NCBI GenBank assembly: GCA_944383325.1
Contig: CALWPC010000032.1
Location: 124,001 to 188,000 of the forward strand
Source of the DNA: an uncultured Lachnospiraceae bacterium
GTDB taxonomy: Bacteria > Bacillota > Clostridia > Lachnospirales > Lachnospiraceae
Length of the DNA stretch: 64,000 nt
Reading direction: 5' to 3'
In this document: in pieces, positions 39,424 to 64,000 of the stretch
How positions within the stretch are numbered: position 1 is the stretch's first letter
How the letters are laid out: the number at the start of each line of letters is the position of its first letter
Notes under the pieces: generated by a model
Told to the model about the DNA's origin: nothing
What the model saw: the letters and a program-made list of their open reading frames with translations, nothing else
Database searches by the model: none
Translations under genes and position numbers: made by a program

Positions 39424-40092
39424 TTAATACTCTACCGATACCGCTTCATTATCGATCTCACCATCGATCGTATATCCAAACAAACTGCCGTCCTTGCCGA
39501 CTACTTCCTTTACACGCACCTGCACATCTCCGGTTCCGCTCCCGACCACTTTAAACAATGGATTGACGTCAAACTCGCTGTGCTGAAAATCCGGTGTATT
39601 CGATAAGGTAATTTCTACCTCGTTCGGGCTGATTTCCTCGCAGCTTACCGTTTGTTCCGGCGAGAAAACCGCACTATCAAACATCAGCACATCCGGATTA
39701 TATGTAATGGAAAGCGTAACATGATCCACCTTGGTCACATGATAAATGTTGCAAAAAAAGCTCGTCGCACTTCCGCGCATCTGTATTTGAGCAATATCTG
39801 TAAGGTCTGCCGCATACTTCAAAACCGCCAGTGCATCTTCGGCATCTACATTCCCATCGTGATTAAAATCCGCAATTTCCCTTTCCTGCTCTTCAAGTTC
39901 GATCTGTGCAGCAAGCCTGAGGATTTCCAGTGCGTCTGCGGCATCGATGACTCCATTGCCATCAAGGTCACCGACGAGCTGCTTTTTATCCGCCGCATTC
40001 ATGTCGGGTGTCTGTAGCTCAGCTGCAAATGATGGAACAGCTACACAAGCGCTTAAAAACGCCGCCGCTGCCGTCGTTATAAATCTCTTCAT
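39424..40092 (-). CDS. Secreted protein with N-terminal dockerin and cohesin-like C-terminal domain
   Basis: 222 residues. Signal peptide (1-23, ending AVPSFAA), dockerin with two calcium loops (GDLDGNGVIDAADALEILR and ADFNHDGNVDAEDALAVL, about 41-98), then a beta-sandwich domain (about 103-222; VDHVTLSITYNPDVLMFDSA) that resembles cohesins. Such a dockerin-plus-cohesin protein could act as an adaptor. It is a single-gene unit; the ATG has a strong GAGGGGGG site. The promoter (40153-40183) contains a G9 tract and may be phase-variable. Cohesin assignment is by pattern only. Confidence 0.75.
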   Translation of the reverse strand: MKRFITTAAAAFLSACVAVPSFAAELQTPDMNAADKKQLVGDLDGNGVIDAADALEILRLAAQIELEEQEREIADFNHDGNVDAEDALAVLKYAADLTDIAQIQMRGSATSFFCNIYHVTKVDHVTLSITYNPDVLMFDSAVFSPEQTVSCEEISPNEVEITLSNTPDFQHSEFDVNPLFKVVGSGTGDVQVRVKEVVGKDGSLFGYTIDGEIDNEAVSVEY

Positions 40093-40152
40093 AAAATCCC
40101 CCCTCAGAGCTTATTCTTTCAACATCATACAACGATCTAAGTTTATATGTAT

Positions 40153-40183
40153 ATCTTAGCATACCCCCCCCCACAAATGTCAA
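40153..40183 (-). promoter_or_regulatory. Promoter with G9 tract in its spacer
   Basis: On the minus strand TTGACA (40183-40178), a 19-bp spacer containing nine G residues (40172-40164), and TAAGAT (40158-40153). Loss of two G would give the optimal 17-bp spacing. Confidence 0.6.
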
Positions 40184-40214: not shown

Positions 40215-40892
40215 TCAATTCGTTTCCGTCCTTTGTCTGAAAATCTGCAAATAATCTTTTACATTCTGTTCAATATCCCCCGAAAAAATCGACGTCCCGG
40301 ACACAATGACATTGGCGCCGGCATTCAGCACAACGTCCACGTTATCTTTCCGTATGCCGCCATCCACTTGTATATCCGTTGACAGACCGAGATCATTCAA
40401 CCCCTCTCTCAGCTTTGCAATCTTTCTGGTACTTGTCTTTATGTACTCCTGTCCGCCAAAGCCAGGATTCACCGTCATAATCAGAATCATATCCACCTGA
40501 TCAATAATATAATCCAACGTATGCAGACTAGTCACCGGATTGAGCGCTACCCCGGCTTTGCATCCGCAGTCCTTAATCTGCTGAATGACGCGGTCAATCT
40601 GGCGGCACGCCTCCACATGAACCGTGATCAGATCGGAACCGCAATCTGCAAAAACCTCAATATAACGCTCCGGATTGCTGACCATCAAATGAACGTCAAA
40701 AATAAGCTTGCTCTCACGGCGCAGTGACCGGATGACCGGCATACCAAACGAAATACTGGGCACAAAATCGCCATCCATAACATCAATATGCAAATACGTC
40801 GCGCCCGCCTGTTCCACAAGCTGAATCTGCTCCCCTAACCGATTAAAATCTGCCGCCAGAATCGACGGCGACAATTTATATGTCTGTCCCAT
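40215..40892 (-). CDS. rpe: Ribulose-phosphate 3-epimerase
   Basis: 225 residues, TIM barrel. Interconverts D-ribulose-5-phosphate and D-xylulose-5-phosphate. Motifs: SPSILAADF, HIDVMDGDFVPSISFGMPV, DVHLMV, MTVNPGFGGQ and DGGI. Follows rsgA after 20 bp, the usual Firmicutes order. The usual next gene, thiamine pyrophosphokinase, is absent; the dockerin gene with its own promoter follows instead. Confidence 0.97.
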   Translation of the reverse strand: MGQTYKLSPSILAADFNRLGEQIQLVEQAGATYLHIDVMDGDFVPSISFGMPVIRSLRRESKLIFDVHLMVSNPERYIEVFADCGSDLITVHVEACRQIDRVIQQIKDCGCKAGVALNPVTSLHTLDYIIDQVDMILIMTVNPGFGGQEYIKTSTRKIAKLREGLNDLGLSTDIQVDGGIRKDNVDVVLNAGANVIVSGTSIFSGDIEQNVKDYLQIFRQRTETN

Positions 40893-57391: not shown

Positions 57392-58927
57392 TTACTCTTC
57401 TCCCGGAAGTACCAGGGGCACCACCGGATAATTGCCTGGATTCCATCCATCCGGCTCATCGAGCTGTCTTGTAGACGGGTTATATTTTGCCGCTAAAAAC
57501 GCATAGGGAGCATAGGACGTCTGAATCTCCTGATCCGTTAAAAGCTTTTCATACGACGGCGCGACAACCTCAAGATCAATCAGGTTGCCTTCCATATCCA
57601 TCGTGCCATACTCCGCATATCTGGCGTTTTCAGGCAAAAAGCCATTCCCGCCCATTTGCACAAAACGGTCAAAATTTGGCGTGTCCTTATTGGAAATATG
57701 CTTATCCATCCTGCAATTATAAAACACAACCATAGCCGGTCCGTTCCAGGGGCGCCCAAGGCTGTAGGACTCCTCTTTCGGCGCGCTGCTCTCTGTAGTC
57801 GGATCGCAAGTCAACATGCAATCCTTAAACAAAAATCCGTACGGCTGCGTTTCCGCCGTCGATGCAGCCGTAATATGACCTGCATTATAAGGACTGTTAA
57901 TTGTACAGCTCTCAAATACCGCCGTACCGTTTCCGTAAATAAAATCAACCGTACCCTCAATGTAACAATTCTCATAATATACCCGGTTGCTCTGGTTCAT
58001 CAGAAGCGTATCCTGCCGTCCGATCATTTTGCACTCATAAAATGCACTGCGATCGGCATCCACACGAAGCGCCAGGCCCTGCGTCTGATTTTTACTGCTT
58101 CGGATATCCTTCTCCCTCTGCTCGATCGTCAGCGCATTTCCATACCAGTTTCCATCCTCGCCTCGGGCATATTTGCGGTAATCTTCGCGTTCTTCCTCCG
58201 TTACATAGATGTTATAAGAATTTTCAAACATCATATTTTTTGCAATAAAATCATGCGCGGTAGATGCGATCACCGTGCTCGCATGATTGGAACTTGCGCT
58301 CACGTTTCCGTCGGAAATCGACCAGTAGTACATACCGCACCCGTAATAAAAGGTAAGATTGGCCTCTTCTTCAGCATCTGGATACATAGCCTCATAAGTG
58401 ACGTATGGCGCCGTAAGCGTCGTATGCTCACGATACGTACCGGGGGCAAACCGCAGGGTAATGCGCTCCTCCTCACAGGTCGGCGCGTGCTGATTGACAT
58501 AATCGACCGCTTCCCCCAAGGTCCGGAAACAATGGGTTCCCGTCGTATACGATTTGCTGTCCACATAAATGACGCGCTCTTCCTGCGGTTTTTCATATCC
58601 GAAATTCGAATATTCTCCAACTGCGGCCTTCAAAAGCAGTAACGCGTCGTCCGCACTGACCAAGCCGTCCGCGTTAACGTCAGCCCGCTCCTTTGTCTGT
58701 TCATCTGCCTCATACAGTCCGGCATTGATCTGCAGCGCGCGCAGTGCATCACGAACCGTATACCTGCCGTCCCCGTTGAGATCCCCCTTGTCGAGCAGCA
58801 CCGGCTCCGACCAATCCGACGTCACAGCCGCCTTTGCCCGAACCGCCGGCAGGCAGACCGTGAAGGCAGCAATTCCAAGCGCCGCAGCAACGTACCTCCC
58901 GCATCTTCTCCATTTATGATTTCTCAA
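57392..58927 (-). CDS. Secreted pectin methylesterase (CE8) with N-terminal dockerin
   Basis: 511 residues. Signal peptide (1-33), dockerin (about 47-105; GDLNGDGRYTVRDALRALQ and ADVNADGLVSADDALLLL), then a CE8 beta-helix (about 118-480). CE8 motifs: QTQGLALRVDADRSAFYECK, GRQDTLL (catalytic Asp), GTVDFIYGNG (second Asp) and SLGRPWNG. It removes methyl esters from homogalacturonan, preparing it for the pectate lyases at 58940 and 15753. It follows the lyase gene on the same strand by 12 bp and is probably co-transcribed. Confidence 0.95.
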   Translation of the reverse strand: MRNHKWRRCGRYVAAALGIAAFTVCLPAVRAKAAVTSDWSEPVLLDKGDLNGDGRYTVRDALRALQINAGLYEADEQTKERADVNADGLVSADDALLLLKAAVGEYSNFGYEKPQEERVIYVDSKSYTTGTHCFRTLGEAVDYVNQHAPTCEEERITLRFAPGTYREHTTLTAPYVTYEAMYPDAEEEANLTFYYGCGMYYWSISDGNVSASSNHASTVIASTAHDFIAKNMMFENSYNIYVTEEEREDYRKYARGEDGNWYGNALTIEQREKDIRSSKNQTQGLALRVDADRSAFYECKMIGRQDTLLMNQSNRVYYENCYIEGTVDFIYGNGTAVFESCTINSPYNAGHITAASTAETQPYGFLFKDCMLTCDPTTESSAPKEESYSLGRPWNGPAMVVFYNCRMDKHISNKDTPNFDRFVQMGGNGFLPENARYAEYGTMDMEGNLIDLEVVAPSYEKLLTDQEIQTSYAPYAFLAAKYNPSTRQLDEPDGWNPGNYPVVPLVLPGEE

Positions 58928-58939
58928 AAAGACACCTCT

Positions 58940-60757
58940 CTATCTCCCGATAGCAGCCTCGGGATTTTCTATCAGAAACTGTAAAAATACCTCCAGATTC
59001 GTAAACGACGTATCCTTATAAGCGGCTTTTCCATCGTCCGGATCATTCTTATCCAAACCGGCAAAATCTTCCCACGCGTCGCTCATACCGTCTTTATCTG
59101 TATCAACATAGGAAGGATAGGAAGCTAACCCGGGATACTGCCCGTCTACAGATGCAGCATATACCGGATTGCTGTTGCTTGAAGGGATAGTCCCCGTCCA
59201 ACCCGGCGACTCGTAAATATAATCGATCGTTTTTCCGGTTCCGTCCTGATACGTTTTCACAATCGCCGCATCCACCGTATCGCGGAACAGCGACGCGCCG
59301 GCATACAGCTCCACTTCCTCCGCCGCCTTCTGTGCGCTCTGAACCTGTGTCATCATCGAATTTTCATAAGGCGCGTCAAGCAGATATTTCGTTTGATCGA
59401 GCACAAGACCGCTCTTTACATAGTACGGATTTTTGTCAGTAGCCAACACATCATCCTCAAAGCGAATCAGAGAAATCTGATCATCAGGCAGCTCTCCGTC
59501 CATCATATTGCCGGACGCATACATATGATTGCCGATGCTAGCTTCAGAGAACATGTATTTTCCAGTCGAAATCGGACCGCTCTTGAAATAGTTATTAATA
59601 TAATTATATGTAGTCAAATACAACAGTGTCCCGTTTTCATCCGCATCACTGGATTTTCCTGAACTCTGTCCCGACCAGTTATAGACCAGATTGTTAATAA
59701 ATTCTACATGCTTTTCGCTGCTATCCAGGTCACTGGACATATATGTTCCAATCATCGGCATCCGGCTGCTGTGCGTCACATACATATTATGATGGAACGT
59801 CACTTTCGATCCCTGCGCTACGCGGATCAACGAACCCATACCGTGACGCGACTTTCCGACATTAACGGAACTCGTAATACTCTGTGCGACAATATTCCAC
59901 TGAACAGACACACGGTCACTGACTGCATCGTATGAATTTCCGTCTCCGCTTGGAGAAACAGAAAGCGTCTCATCGGTTCCCCATGTCACGCTGCAGTGAT
60001 CAACAATCACATCTTTGGACCCCTTCACATCGACACTGTCGTTCTGTTTGCCCATCTGGTCGCCGGAGCGAATGCGCAGATAGCGCACAATCACATTGCT
60101 CGTATCGCTAATATGCAGTCCGTAATTTGCCAGACATATTCCATCGCCCGGAGCTGTCTGTCCTGCTATCGTAACGTCGCCGTTCTTGATCGTGAGATTA
60201 CTGTTCAGGTAAATCGTTCCCGATACCTTAAATACGATCGTGCGCGGGCCTTTCATTTCTATCGCCGCACGCAGAGAACCCTCGCCGCTGTCGTTTAAGT
60301 TGGTTACTTCAACTACTTGGCCGCCGCGGCCGCCGGTTGTATATTTCCCATAGCCGTCAGCACCCAGAAAACCAATGCCGTCTTCTGCCTCCTCAAACCC
60401 TTCTGGAATATAATACTCTACATCATCCAGATATTGCTCATATCCAAGCTGATAATCGGCCAGGCCGGCAATATCCTGTAATATCATAAGTGCGTCCCGA
60501 ACAGAAAGCGTCCCGTCCTCATTCAGATCTCCATTGACAACATGCGCATCCTGTTTTGCCACCGTACCGGAAATCGCCTGCAGCGCCTTCAGCGCATCAC
60601 TTGCGTCAACAATACCGTCATTATTCACATCCCCGCGCTTTAAAGCGCTGCTGACTGTTCCCTGTCTCGCAAGAGTGGTTTCTGTATCCGCCCATACCGG
60701 AGTAGTAACCGCCATGGAAATCGCCAATGACAAAGCCATAACTTTCTTCAGTCTCAT
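58940..60757 (-). CDS. Secreted pectate lyase (PL1-like) with N-terminal dockerin
   Basis: About 605 residues from ATG 60757 (GAGGAGG upstream). Signal peptide (to about residue 24, TTPVWA), dockerin (about 41-106; GDVNNDGIVDASDALKALQ and GDLNEDGTLSVRDALMILQ), then a lyase beta-helix (ADGYGKYTTGGRGGQVVEVT, VDHCSVTWGTDETL, VTFHHNMYVTHSSRMPMIG), and a C-terminal calcium-binding segment (DTDKDGMSDAWEDFAG). Cleaves pectate outside the cell by beta-elimination. Upstream of the methylesterase gene. Confidence 0.93.
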   Translation of the reverse strand: MRLKKVMALSLAISMAVTTPVWADTETTLARQGTVSSALKRGDVNNDGIVDASDALKALQAISGTVAKQDAHVVNGDLNEDGTLSVRDALMILQDIAGLADYQLGYEQYLDDVEYYIPEGFEEAEDGIGFLGADGYGKYTTGGRGGQVVEVTNLNDSGEGSLRAAIEMKGPRTIVFKVSGTIYLNSNLTIKNGDVTIAGQTAPGDGICLANYGLHISDTSNVIVRYLRIRSGDQMGKQNDSVDVKGSKDVIVDHCSVTWGTDETLSVSPSGDGNSYDAVSDRVSVQWNIVAQSITSSVNVGKSRHGMGSLIRVAQGSKVTFHHNMYVTHSSRMPMIGTYMSSDLDSSEKHVEFINNLVYNWSGQSSGKSSDADENGTLLYLTTYNYINNYFKSGPISTGKYMFSEASIGNHMYASGNMMDGELPDDQISLIRFEDDVLATDKNPYYVKSGLVLDQTKYLLDAPYENSMMTQVQSAQKAAEEVELYAGASLFRDTVDAAIVKTYQDGTGKTIDYIYESPGWTGTIPSSNSNPVYAASVDGQYPGLASYPSYVDTDKDGMSDAWEDFAGLDKNDPDDGKAAYKDTSFTNLEVFLQFLIENPEAAIGR

Positions 60758-60954
60758 ACCCTTACTTCCTCCTCTGATGCTGCGCCTGGACATATACAAC
60801 TGATTTTTTCATCTATGTATTGAAAATTGGAACGATAGCACAAAAAAACAGCCGTATATCCCCAGTTTTTTATTGATCTTATACATCATACCATACAATA
60901 AAACGAAAGTAAAGATTTGCAAACAGATGTTCCTTTAAAGATACAAAAGAACAG

Positions 60955-60986
60955 AAAAAAGGACACCGACTTTCGTCAGTGTCCTT
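60955..60986 (-). terminator. Terminator of the cohesin-like surface protein gene
   Basis: AAAGGACACTGAC-GAAA-GTCGGTGTCC followed by TTTTTT on the minus strand. Confidence 0.8.
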
Positions 60987-61028
60987 TACAAACGATATTG
61001 ACATTCAGAATGCTAAACCTAACACGTA

Positions 61029-61883
61029 TTAGATTGTAGCTTTCTTCTTCAGCGTAACAAGTACAACACCTGCTGCAAGAGCAAGAACTGCCATTGTAGC
61101 TACCGGAGCAACGTCAGCAGTCTTAGCTGCGCTTGTGCTAGAACCTGTTGAAGAAGATCCTGTTGAGGAGCTTCCTGTTGAGGAGCTTCCTGTTGAGGAA
61201 GAACCGCCAGTTGTAGAAGAACCACCAGTTGTGGAACCACCTGTCGGTGCTTTTGTTGCGTCAACAGTCGGTGCTTTTGTTGCATCTGCGCTCGGTGCAG
61301 GCTCGTCACTAGAAACAGGTGTCTCAGTCGGAGCTGATGTCGGATCTGCGCTCGGTACAGGCTCATCAGTAGGAACCGGCGCCTCAGTCGGAGCTGCAGA
61401 AGGAGTTACTTCAGGCATAATAGCCTGTGTATCAACAGCAACTTCGCATGTGCTCAAATCATCTTTAACAGCTGCGGTACCCTTAATAACTCTCATTGTA
61501 GATTCTGCAGTTACATCTGAAAACTTAACTGTAAACACTGCGCCATCCCAGTCATTGTTCTGAGCCTTTGCGCCAGTTGCAACAACATAAGTCTCGCCGC
61601 CTTTAGAAGCTGCCGGATTCTTAACACCAGTACCACCGTCGCCAAGATAATCCAATCTGAAATCTGTAACATAGGATACATCTGCATCTGTAGTAGTTGC
61701 ATCTGTATATACGATACCGATATCAAATGTCTCCAGGTTGCCGCTTGCATAAACAGTAACAGTCACCGTACCGTCTTCATTTAATACTTTATCAACAGAT
61801 ACGGAATACTCTCCAGCAAATGCCATTACGCTCATGGATAAAACCATAGCCAGTGCAACGACTGTTGCAAGTAATTTCTTCAT
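61029..61883 (-). CDS. Wall-anchored surface protein with cohesin-like domain
   Basis: 284 residues. Signal peptide (1-23, ending VMAFAG), a beta-sandwich domain of about 135 residues (YSVSVDKVLNEDGTVTVTVY, DWDGAVFTVKFSDV) with cohesin-like spacing, a Pro/Thr/Asp linker, a Gly/Ser-rich stretch of SSTG repeats, then a C-terminal signal: AAKTADVAP, hydrophobic segment, KKK. The sorting motif is unusual, resembling a degenerate PKTGD/LPxTG. It would be the cell-wall anchor for dockerin enzymes. The cohesin call is by pattern only. Confidence 0.7.
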   Translation of the reverse strand: MKKLLATVVALAMVLSMSVMAFAGEYSVSVDKVLNEDGTVTVTVYASGNLETFDIGIVYTDATTTDADVSYVTDFRLDYLGDGGTGVKNPAASKGGETYVVATGAKAQNNDWDGAVFTVKFSDVTAESTMRVIKGTAAVKDDLSTCEVAVDTQAIMPEVTPSAAPTEAPVPTDEPVPSADPTSAPTETPVSSDEPAPSADATKAPTVDATKAPTGGSTTGGSSTTGGSSSTGSSSTGSSSTGSSSTGSSTSAAKTADVAPVATMAVLALAAGVVLVTLKKKATI

Positions 61884-62096
61884 CTCTTAATCTCTTCCTT
61901 CCTATTAATATGTTATAGCAATACGTTTACATCACAAAATATAACATCTGTGCATCTGAATGTCAAGAAAAATTTCATTTTTTCACATGCTCATAGCATA
62001 TGTCAACTTGGCTTCGTTCCGCAACTGTCTCACATTGGAATGTAAGACATATACTGCCACATTACCTTCCTTTCGATAATGCCGAAACTACATCAA

Positions 62097-62885
62097 TTAC
62101 AGTTCCGGAATCAGTTGTGCCGCGTACTGTAAAATTTGCAGCGCATCGTCTGCACTGATCATTCCATCAGCATTGACGTCAGCCGCATTGGTCTGTGCTT
62201 CATCCAACTCCATCAGCTGAGCTGCATTCTGCAGAACAAGAAGCGCATCCTGTGCGTCCACAACACCGTCCGCATTGACATCGCCGCGCGTGTACGGCTC
62301 TTCTGACGGCTGAGACGTCGGCTCCTCCGTCGCCGGAGTATCCGTCGGATCCGGCGCAGCGCTCTTGAAAAATGTAACTGTCGAACCCTGCGTTGCCACA
62401 TCGGAAGCTTCCGTATTAAAACCTAATTCCTCGACGCTGATCTCCAGTTGTGTCGTCGTGTTATCTTTTGAAATTCTCTGACACAGCACAAATGTCAGCT
62501 GACCGACCTGGCCGGTCGCCTCAAGCGCCGCATCTTCGGTAGTGATGCCCGCAATCCGAATGCTTCCGTTCGTGTCCGTATTGACATCCTGATACCCCTC
62601 AAACGCTGTAATTCCATTCAAAATCTCATCGCCCTCGGGTTCCTGGACTTCCAAGCAGCGGCTATCGTACGTCACCGTAAAATCATAGCACTGCATATCA
62701 ATCGTCCCGTCCACATAAATCGGAACAGTTACAATGCTCTCGTCTCTTGTCGCCGAATAGACCGTGACGTCACCCAACCGCACCGTCGGTTTCTGCTCCT
62801 CCGCATTTGCAAACACAAAAACCTGCGCGCTCACCGCCAATGCCAACACAGCGATACAGGCAATCACTTTTCTGATATGTTTCAT
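62097..62885 (-). CDS. Secreted cohesin-dockerin adaptor protein
   Basis: About 262 residues from ATG 62885 (GAGGA 6 nt upstream). Signal peptide (to about residue 27), cohesin domain (about 33-172; TVTVYSATRDESIVTVPIYV, YDFTVTYDSRCLEV, GSIRIAGITTED, GQLTFVL), a Thr/Pro/Glu linker, and a two-repeat C-terminal dockerin (GDVNADGVVDAQDALLVLQ, ADVNADGMISADDALQILQ). With both modules it can bridge one dockerin enzyme to another cohesin. It lies between the surface protein and the LamG-dockerin gene. Confidence 0.85.
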   Translation of the reverse strand: MKHIRKVIACIAVLALAVSAQVFVFANAEEQKPTVRLGDVTVYSATRDESIVTVPIYVDGTIDMQCYDFTVTYDSRCLEVQEPEGDEILNGITAFEGYQDVNTDTNGSIRIAGITTEDAALEATGQVGQLTFVLCQRISKDNTTTQLEISVEELGFNTEASDVATQGSTVTFFKSAAPDPTDTPATEEPTSQPSEEPYTRGDVNADGVVDAQDALLVLQNAAQLMELDEAQTNAADVNADGMISADDALQILQYAAQLIPEL

Positions 62886-62951
62886 ACGAAGTCCTCTTTT
62901 CATTTAGACAGCGCTCTCCTCCATTACAGAGGAGAGACTGCCTGTGTGCTA

Positions 62952-64000
62952 TTAATCAAGCTGTGCTGCAATTCTAAGAATTGTAAGTGCATCGTCTGCA
63001 GTAACATTGCCATCGCCATTCAGATCTGCAATTGCCAACTGCGTTTCATCTAATGTTGTCAACTGTGCCGCATGCTGAAGAACAAGCAGTGCATCTTCTG
63101 CCGTTGCAGCGCCGTCCTGGTTCACATCGCCGCGAACCGTCGGATTCACATGCGGATCGTTTGCCTTTGCATCTTCATACAATGCCTGAACCTGTGCGTC
63201 AGAAAGCTCCTCGTCATAGAAACGCAGACATGTCACATAGGAATCTGTTGTCGTCTGGTAATTGCTCTTCGATCCTGCTCTGTTTACATAGCCAAGATAT
63301 ACGGAAGTATCTTCTGCTGTCAGGAAAGACATAATCGAAGTTGCTCCCTGATTTTGCGTTCCGCCATAAATCAGATTGTTTGTAACATTTGCAAAACTCG
63401 GAAGTCCCTCATAAGTTGCTACAGAGTCATTGTCAATTTTCCACTGATAATAACCATCATAGAAACGAGGTCCAACATTGTCGTTTGCGTTCTCAATCTT
63501 TACACCGTCAATGTATGTCTGGATACCGGAGTTTGCCATCGTCATCGTTACATAATGCCACTCCGTATTTGCCGCCAAAATTGCAGCAGATTGCTCCTCT
63601 GAAGCGGAGAAGGTGAAATCATTTTTCAGCGTGCTGATCACTGCAGCATCGGATGTACCTTCCTGGAATACCGCCATACCGTTACTCATAGAGTACAAAA
63701 TGGAATATGCCTTGATCGTCTTCGCTGTTTCCTGCATCTTGGACTGATAAATCAGCTTTGCTGTATCTACAAAAGATACTGCCGCCGAATTAGCAACCGT
63801 TCCGTCTTCCGCCGCATCCTGCTTCAGCCAGTAGGAGATGGTTGCTCCGGTCATATCATCTCTTCCTGCAAACGGATTCTCAGCGAGCTGAAGTGCGGAA
63901 GTCTCTGTTGCGGAGCTTGCCGCCAACTTCACAACGTTGCCCATCGTCGCATCGTTTACAATCGAAGGATCTGCTACCTGATTGCGTCTTCCCTCATTAG
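62952..64000 (-). CDS. LamG-like domain and C-terminal dockerin of a larger secreted protein (5' end beyond window)
   Basis: The frame is open to the window edge, so the N-terminal part, including any signal peptide and catalytic domain, is missing; the internal ATG at 63944 is not a credible start. Visible are a LamG/concanavalin-like domain (ENPFAGRDDMTGATISYWLK, WHYVTMTMANSGIQTYIDGV, VTCLRFYDEELSDAQVQALY) and a dockerin (GDVNQDGAATAEDALLVLQ, ADLNGDGNVTADDALTIL). The same LamG-linker-dockerin tail ends the pectate lyase at 15753, so this is likely another polysaccharide-active enzyme. Confidence 0.85.
   Translation of the reverse strand, partial: NEGRRNQVADPSIVNDATMGNVVKLAASSATETSALQLAENPFAGRDDMTGATISYWLKQDAAEDGTVANSAAVSFVDTAKLIYQSKMQETAKTIKAYSILYSMSNGMAVFQEGTSDAAVISTLKNDFTFSASEEQSAAILAANTEWHYVTMTMANSGIQTYIDGVKIENANDNVGPRFYDGYYQWKIDNDSVATYEGLPSFANVTNNLIYGGTQNQGATSIMSFLTAEDTSVYLGYVNRAGSKSNYQTTTDSYVTCLRFYDEELSDAQVQALYEDAKANDPHVNPTVRGDVNQDGAATAEDALLVLQHAAQLTTLDETQLAIADLNGDGNVTADDALTILRIAAQLD

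Follow-up and report, generated by a model that had tools for sequence, protein, structure and literature searches.

We found that the gene of a secreted dockerin protein in an uncultured Lachnospiraceae bacterium probably carries a real sigma-A-type promoter with nine consecutive G in its spacer, and that slippage in this tract probably varies dockerin expression in a graded manner rather than as an ON/OFF switch. The features at the locus in the window, namely the whole 64,000-nucleotide stretch of DNA analysed, are as follows:

39424..40092, minus strand: target gene, 222 aa, with a signal peptide, a type I dockerin (aa 41-93) and a C-terminal domain of unknown family
40093..40152, minus strand: predicted 5' leader with a GAGGGG ribosome site ahead of the ATG, from the sequence
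40153..40158, minus strand: -10 box TAAGAT, 4/6 matches to TATAAT
40159..40163, minus strand: TATGC, with the TG of a TGn-extended -10 as judged from the consensus
40164..40172, minus strand: G9 tract within the promoter spacer as read from the sequence, one of the two G tracts of at least nine in the genome
40178..40183, minus strand: -35 box TTGACA, 6/6 matches to the consensus
40215..40892, minus strand: rpe (ribulose-phosphate 3-epimerase), the upstream gene on the same strand
40153-40124, minus strand: TATACA-18-TATGAT, an alternative candidate promoter downstream of the tract
40209-40204, minus strand: TATAAT, a further candidate for an alternative start

Read on the minus strand from 40183 to 40153, the site is TTGACA-TTTGT-GGGGGGGGG-TATGC-TAAGAT, with nine G and a total spacer of 19 bp. 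This re-reading agrees with the initial annotation in the coordinates, the box sequences, the number of G and the spacer length, and adds two features absent from it: the TGn-extended -10 (TGC-TAAGAT) and the lack of a terminator from rpe to the dockerin gene. No intrinsic terminator was found in the gap between these two genes, and therefore part of the dockerin expression could come by read-through. The transcription start is expected around 40146, within the predicted leader, and 72 bp separate the tract from the ATG (40092) downstream of it. As in a porA-type promoter, the poly-G run is situated between recognisable -35 and -10 boxes, and the spacer of 19 bp is inside the range of approximately 15-20 bp where one or two bases matter. 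TTGACA and TAAGAT spaced by 10 to 25 bases occur four times in the genome, and only the occurrence at the dockerin gene holds a long G-run.

The G9 run alone is not significant, because the number of G/C runs of at least nine in the 2.0-Mb genome (two) matches the expectation of about 1-2.5 per 2 Mb from Markov models of orders 2-4 trained on the window. Unlike the run itself, its position between the -35 and the extended -10 is not ordinary: of 20,000 trials that kept the G9 in place and shuffled its flanks within the 122-bp gap, only 0.15% gave an equal or better promoter spanning the tract.

With regard to the target, aa 41-93 match the type I dockerin family (Pfam PF00404, 38.1 bits against a gathering score cut-off of 22.9) and the PDB entry that matches best is a dockerin from a cellulosomal hydrolase of family 48 (E 1.6e-4), supporting the name dockerin that had been given to the gene. 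The protein is predicted to be secreted from its signal peptide, called by a crude script rule, together with the dockerin domain, as had been proposed. The additional label of cohesin-like was not sustained, since the C-terminal 128 aa gave no Pfam match, PF00963 included. The C-terminus showed a weak match of 16.9 bits (E 0.38) inside the cohesin domain of the one cohesin protein of the genome, and the single-sequence fold model (mean pLDDT 43) is too poor to judge a cohesin fold. The docking system, put forward as putative, is real, because the target protein has 28 matches in the genome at E<=0.001, itself included, of which the other 27 cover the dockerin part. The only Pfam cohesin protein of the genome is encoded at 62097-62903 of the window and itself carries a dockerin. 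It belongs to a cluster of dockerin proteins at 57392-63944, which comprises a pectinesterase, a pectate lyase, a laminin-G-like protein and the cohesin protein. Around the remaining dockerin matches in the genome, 27 stretches (L013-L039) showed no G/C run of at least seven.

Searches of 397 family genomes and of a wider genome contig collection yielded no ortholog of the target; the five matches in the latter were distant dockerin repeats (from Phycisphaerales and a cyanobacterium), and the genus of the source genome is represented by one genome. Therefore, recurrence of the poly-G spacer architecture was examined instead. The pattern TTGACA-N2..9-G7-N2..9-TANNNT was searched in the 397 family genomes and all distinct places were read, giving 55 places in 41 genomes, which are not all independent as some share a genome (five in G369, four in G060) or are paralogs. 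Tracts of 7, 8, 9, 10 and 11 G accounted for 12, 9, 14, 13 and 7 places, respectively, without the fall-off expected for chance runs. The spacer was 16-20 bp in 52 of the 55 places when the -10 nearest to 17.5 was taken, and in 44 when the best -10 was taken instead; the length of 19 bp is common (14/55). The G-run directly abuts the -10 in 28 of the 55 places, compared with five intervening bases at the dockerin gene. Length compensation between G and non-G parts of the spacer was not found in these places, the variance being not reduced relative to permutation (p 0.92).

The same pattern read backward gave three places in the family. This control is insufficient, because the same asymmetry holds for ordinary promoters (996 TTGACA-N17-TATAAT against 19 in the reverse order, summed over 30 of these genomes), and so the C7 version of the pattern, the tract lengths and a survey of long G tracts were used. 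The C7 version occurred in 16 places in 15 of the 397 genomes, and tracts of at least nine were found in 5 of these 16 places versus 34 of the 55 G-run places (Fisher p 0.045). The survey of G>=9 tracts, which were not selected for promoters, covered 60 family genomes, in which 90 loci among the matches listed (30 given by the search and 60 chosen by hand, the latter omitting almost every tract of G013, G016 and G029, three genomes rich in such tracts) yielded 91 distinct tracts. A promoter-like site was defined as at least 9 of 12 box matches with a spacer of 15-21 bp spanning the tract. Such sites were present at 12 of the 91 tracts on the G strand versus 2 of the 91 on the C strand (Fisher p 0.01), compared with 3.1% of 3,600 random positions (binomial p 2e-5 for the 12 tracts), and 79 of the tracts lay outside them. 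At a threshold of at least 10/12, which is the score of the dockerin locus, the values were 8 of the 91 tracts against 1.0% at random. Thus, promoter-located G>=9 tracts exceed chance several-fold, in the G orientation only.

The genes behind the poly-G promoters are mostly secreted. Secreted proteins or lipoproteins were called for 36 of 50 downstream genes, compared with 6 of 25 genes behind ordinary strong promoters (TTGACA-N17-TATAAT) from 30 of the same genomes (Fisher p 1.5e-4), after loci with no gene call had been dropped (5 of 55 and 5 of 30, respectively). These calls come from our own crude signal-peptide script. By eye, its results for the 50 genes include one false positive (L100) and one false negative (the truncated L087), and of the six control positives at least two (L132 and L154) look cytoplasmic. 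In a class-wide draw, the pattern was present in 14 of 291 genomes, that of the window included, with 22 places besides the dockerin one, and 16 of the 19 with a gene call precede genes of secreted proteins or lipoproteins.

Some genomes of this draw are rich in such spacers. G517, a genome of 1.1 Mb from another family of the class, has six poly-G spacers of 11-14 G (loci L180, L190, L193, L195 and L199), which include two duplicated pairs, and five of the six precede lipoprotein genes. G625 (1.8 Mb) has five (loci L179, L194, L196 and L198), three of them before lipoprotein genes, and here two poly-G spacers stand in tandem upstream of one gene. Moreover, 21 stretches of viral contigs match a stricter poly-G promoter pattern.

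Duplicated genes provided comparisons of tract length. The tracts upstream of two lipoprotein-gene duplicates in G517 (L190/L199) are G11 and G12 with 91.5% identity over 707 bases, and those upstream of duplicated genes in G078 (L109/L110) are G9 and G7 with 82% identity over 701 bases; two further duplicated pairs (one in G076 and the second in G517) showed no difference in tract length. Such differences between duplicates are indirect evidence suggesting that runs of this kind slip.

The source genome contains eleven G-tracts of at least seven. Beyond the limits of the window, its contig also carries a surface-polysaccharide cluster in which a span of 5.3 kb (C32:34561-39847) holds four runs of G7-G8, and the runs listed for it are the following:

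L092 4562-4568: G-run of the cluster
L092 8498-8504: G-run of the cluster
L092 9841-9848: G-run of the cluster

In an acyltransferase-3 gene of the cluster, the two halves (profile positions 4-255 and 271-325) are in different frames at a G-run, and a family-2 glycosyltransferase has its start in another frame than the remainder with the break at a G-run, while a third run is inside an intact acyltransferase. Elsewhere in the genome, the C-terminus of a D-Ala-D-Ala carboxypeptidase leaves the frame at a G8 run (C46:79518-79525; L097 3019-3026), and another G8 run (C14:15946-15953; L098 5947-5954) is located at the ribosome-binding region of a Sir2-family gene, making it a candidate translational tract. 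The frame-breaking tracts may be phase-variable or may be assembly errors. Altogether, the other tracts fit a genome that uses G-tracts.

From these data, slippage is the best-supported reading of the G9 spacer, because the architecture recurs in the family, the targets are secreted proteins or lipoproteins, the bias is to the G strand, the tracts are long and duplicates differ in length. Replication slippage would change the number of G in the spacer, the altered -35/-10 spacing and helical phase would change the promoter strength, and sister cells would then differ in the amount of dockerin protein. An extended -10 weakens the dependence of a promoter on its -35. Because of the TGn-extended -10 and the possible read-through from rpe, which could mask a switch, a graded change that is strongest near 17-18 bp is likelier than a full ON/OFF switch. 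The present allele need not be OFF, because its spacer length is a common one among the poly-G promoters. Against the slippage reading speak the 79 surveyed tracts outside promoter-like sites, the five bases between the run and the -10 at the dockerin gene, the lack of length compensation within the spacers and the two duplicated pairs of equal tract length. Thus, phase variation by spacer slippage, as proposed in the initial annotation, is favoured by the recurring G-strand spacers, the secreted targets and the duplicate differences, whereas full ON/OFF switching is disfavoured by the extended -10 and the possible read-through.

It is possible, though rather unlikely, that a real promoter is sustained by its extended -10 and that the G9 within it arose by chance, is neutral and has little effect. 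The agreement of the two long runs with the Markov expectation, the TGn element itself and the position of the tract, which does not abut the -10 unlike in the 28 relatives, all speak for such neutrality; against it stand the frequency of promoter-like sites at G>=9 tracts, about four times as high on the G strand as at random and six times as high as on the C strand, and the bias of poly-G promoters to secreted genes. We consider it improbable that the dockerin gene is transcribed from elsewhere, with the tract irrelevant or in a leader, by read-through from prkC-rsgA-rpe or from one of the two alternative sites listed above. The missing terminator after rpe is consistent with this, as are the exact TATAAT after the rpe stop and a promoter scan of the gap with spacers of 16-18 bp, which lists only the weak TATACA-18-TATGAT, but the perfect TTGACA -35 and the TGn -10 give a better total match than these alternatives, and the observed promoter fit was rare in the flank shuffles. 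That the number of G is an assembly artefact of this draft genome in 53 contigs seems very improbable: homopolymers are prone to error and the frame breaks at other G-tracts of the assembly could also be errors, but the run is long whatever its exact count, the single T8 and the single A8 runs of the window lie in genes with intact frames and many independent genomes show the same architecture.

The best-known examples of phase variation by homopolymer slippage come from Gram-negative pathogens, and in Neisseria the poly-G promoter spacer is an established device. In porA of Neisseria meningitidis, loss or gain of one G in the spacer alters transcription (PMC3899988; PMC7864442). The dockerin locus resembles porA in having a poly-G between the -35 and -10 of a surface protein gene, but differs in its clostridial-type genome, its TGn-extended -10 and its product, a secreted dockerin and not a porin. 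The promoter of tprL in Treponema pallidum has a poly-G of 8-10, which is variable within isolates; this tract overlaps the -10 region and leaves the spacing unaltered, whereas the tract of the dockerin gene is clearly in the spacer (PMC7864442). In Bifidobacterium breve UCC2003, likewise a gut Gram-positive, the pilus genes show G-tract slippage in surface genes, but these are coding tracts that switch the frame, whereas the tract of the dockerin gene would act on transcription; other G-tracts, in promoter spacers, are mentioned there in one sentence (PMC9187656). The promoter-proximal T-tract of sabA in Helicobacter pylori acts as a rheostat, similar to the graded outcome expected at the dockerin gene (PMC4081817). 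We found no report of poly-G promoter spacers in this clostridial family in the open-licence PMC literature.

Finally, we tentatively suggest, with slightly less than even confidence, that Clostridia, above all the family of the source genome, have widespread undescribed contingency promoters with a spacer tract of G7-G14, often placed against the -10 and mainly serving genes of secreted proteins and lipoproteins. In the source genome, these would act jointly with the frame-shifting G-tracts of surface-polysaccharide genes, so that slippage would vary both the cellulosome-type dockerin and the cell surface. The slippage reading of the poly-G spacers of the family could be examined in existing reads. 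Since comparable tracts recur in promoters of secreted proteins in related bacteria, the poly-G tract of the dockerin gene is a plausible candidate for making expression differ between cells. If the recurring spacers of the family are slippage switches, fibre-degrading commensals would gain a simple, sequence-readable cell-to-cell variation in their secreted and docking proteins.
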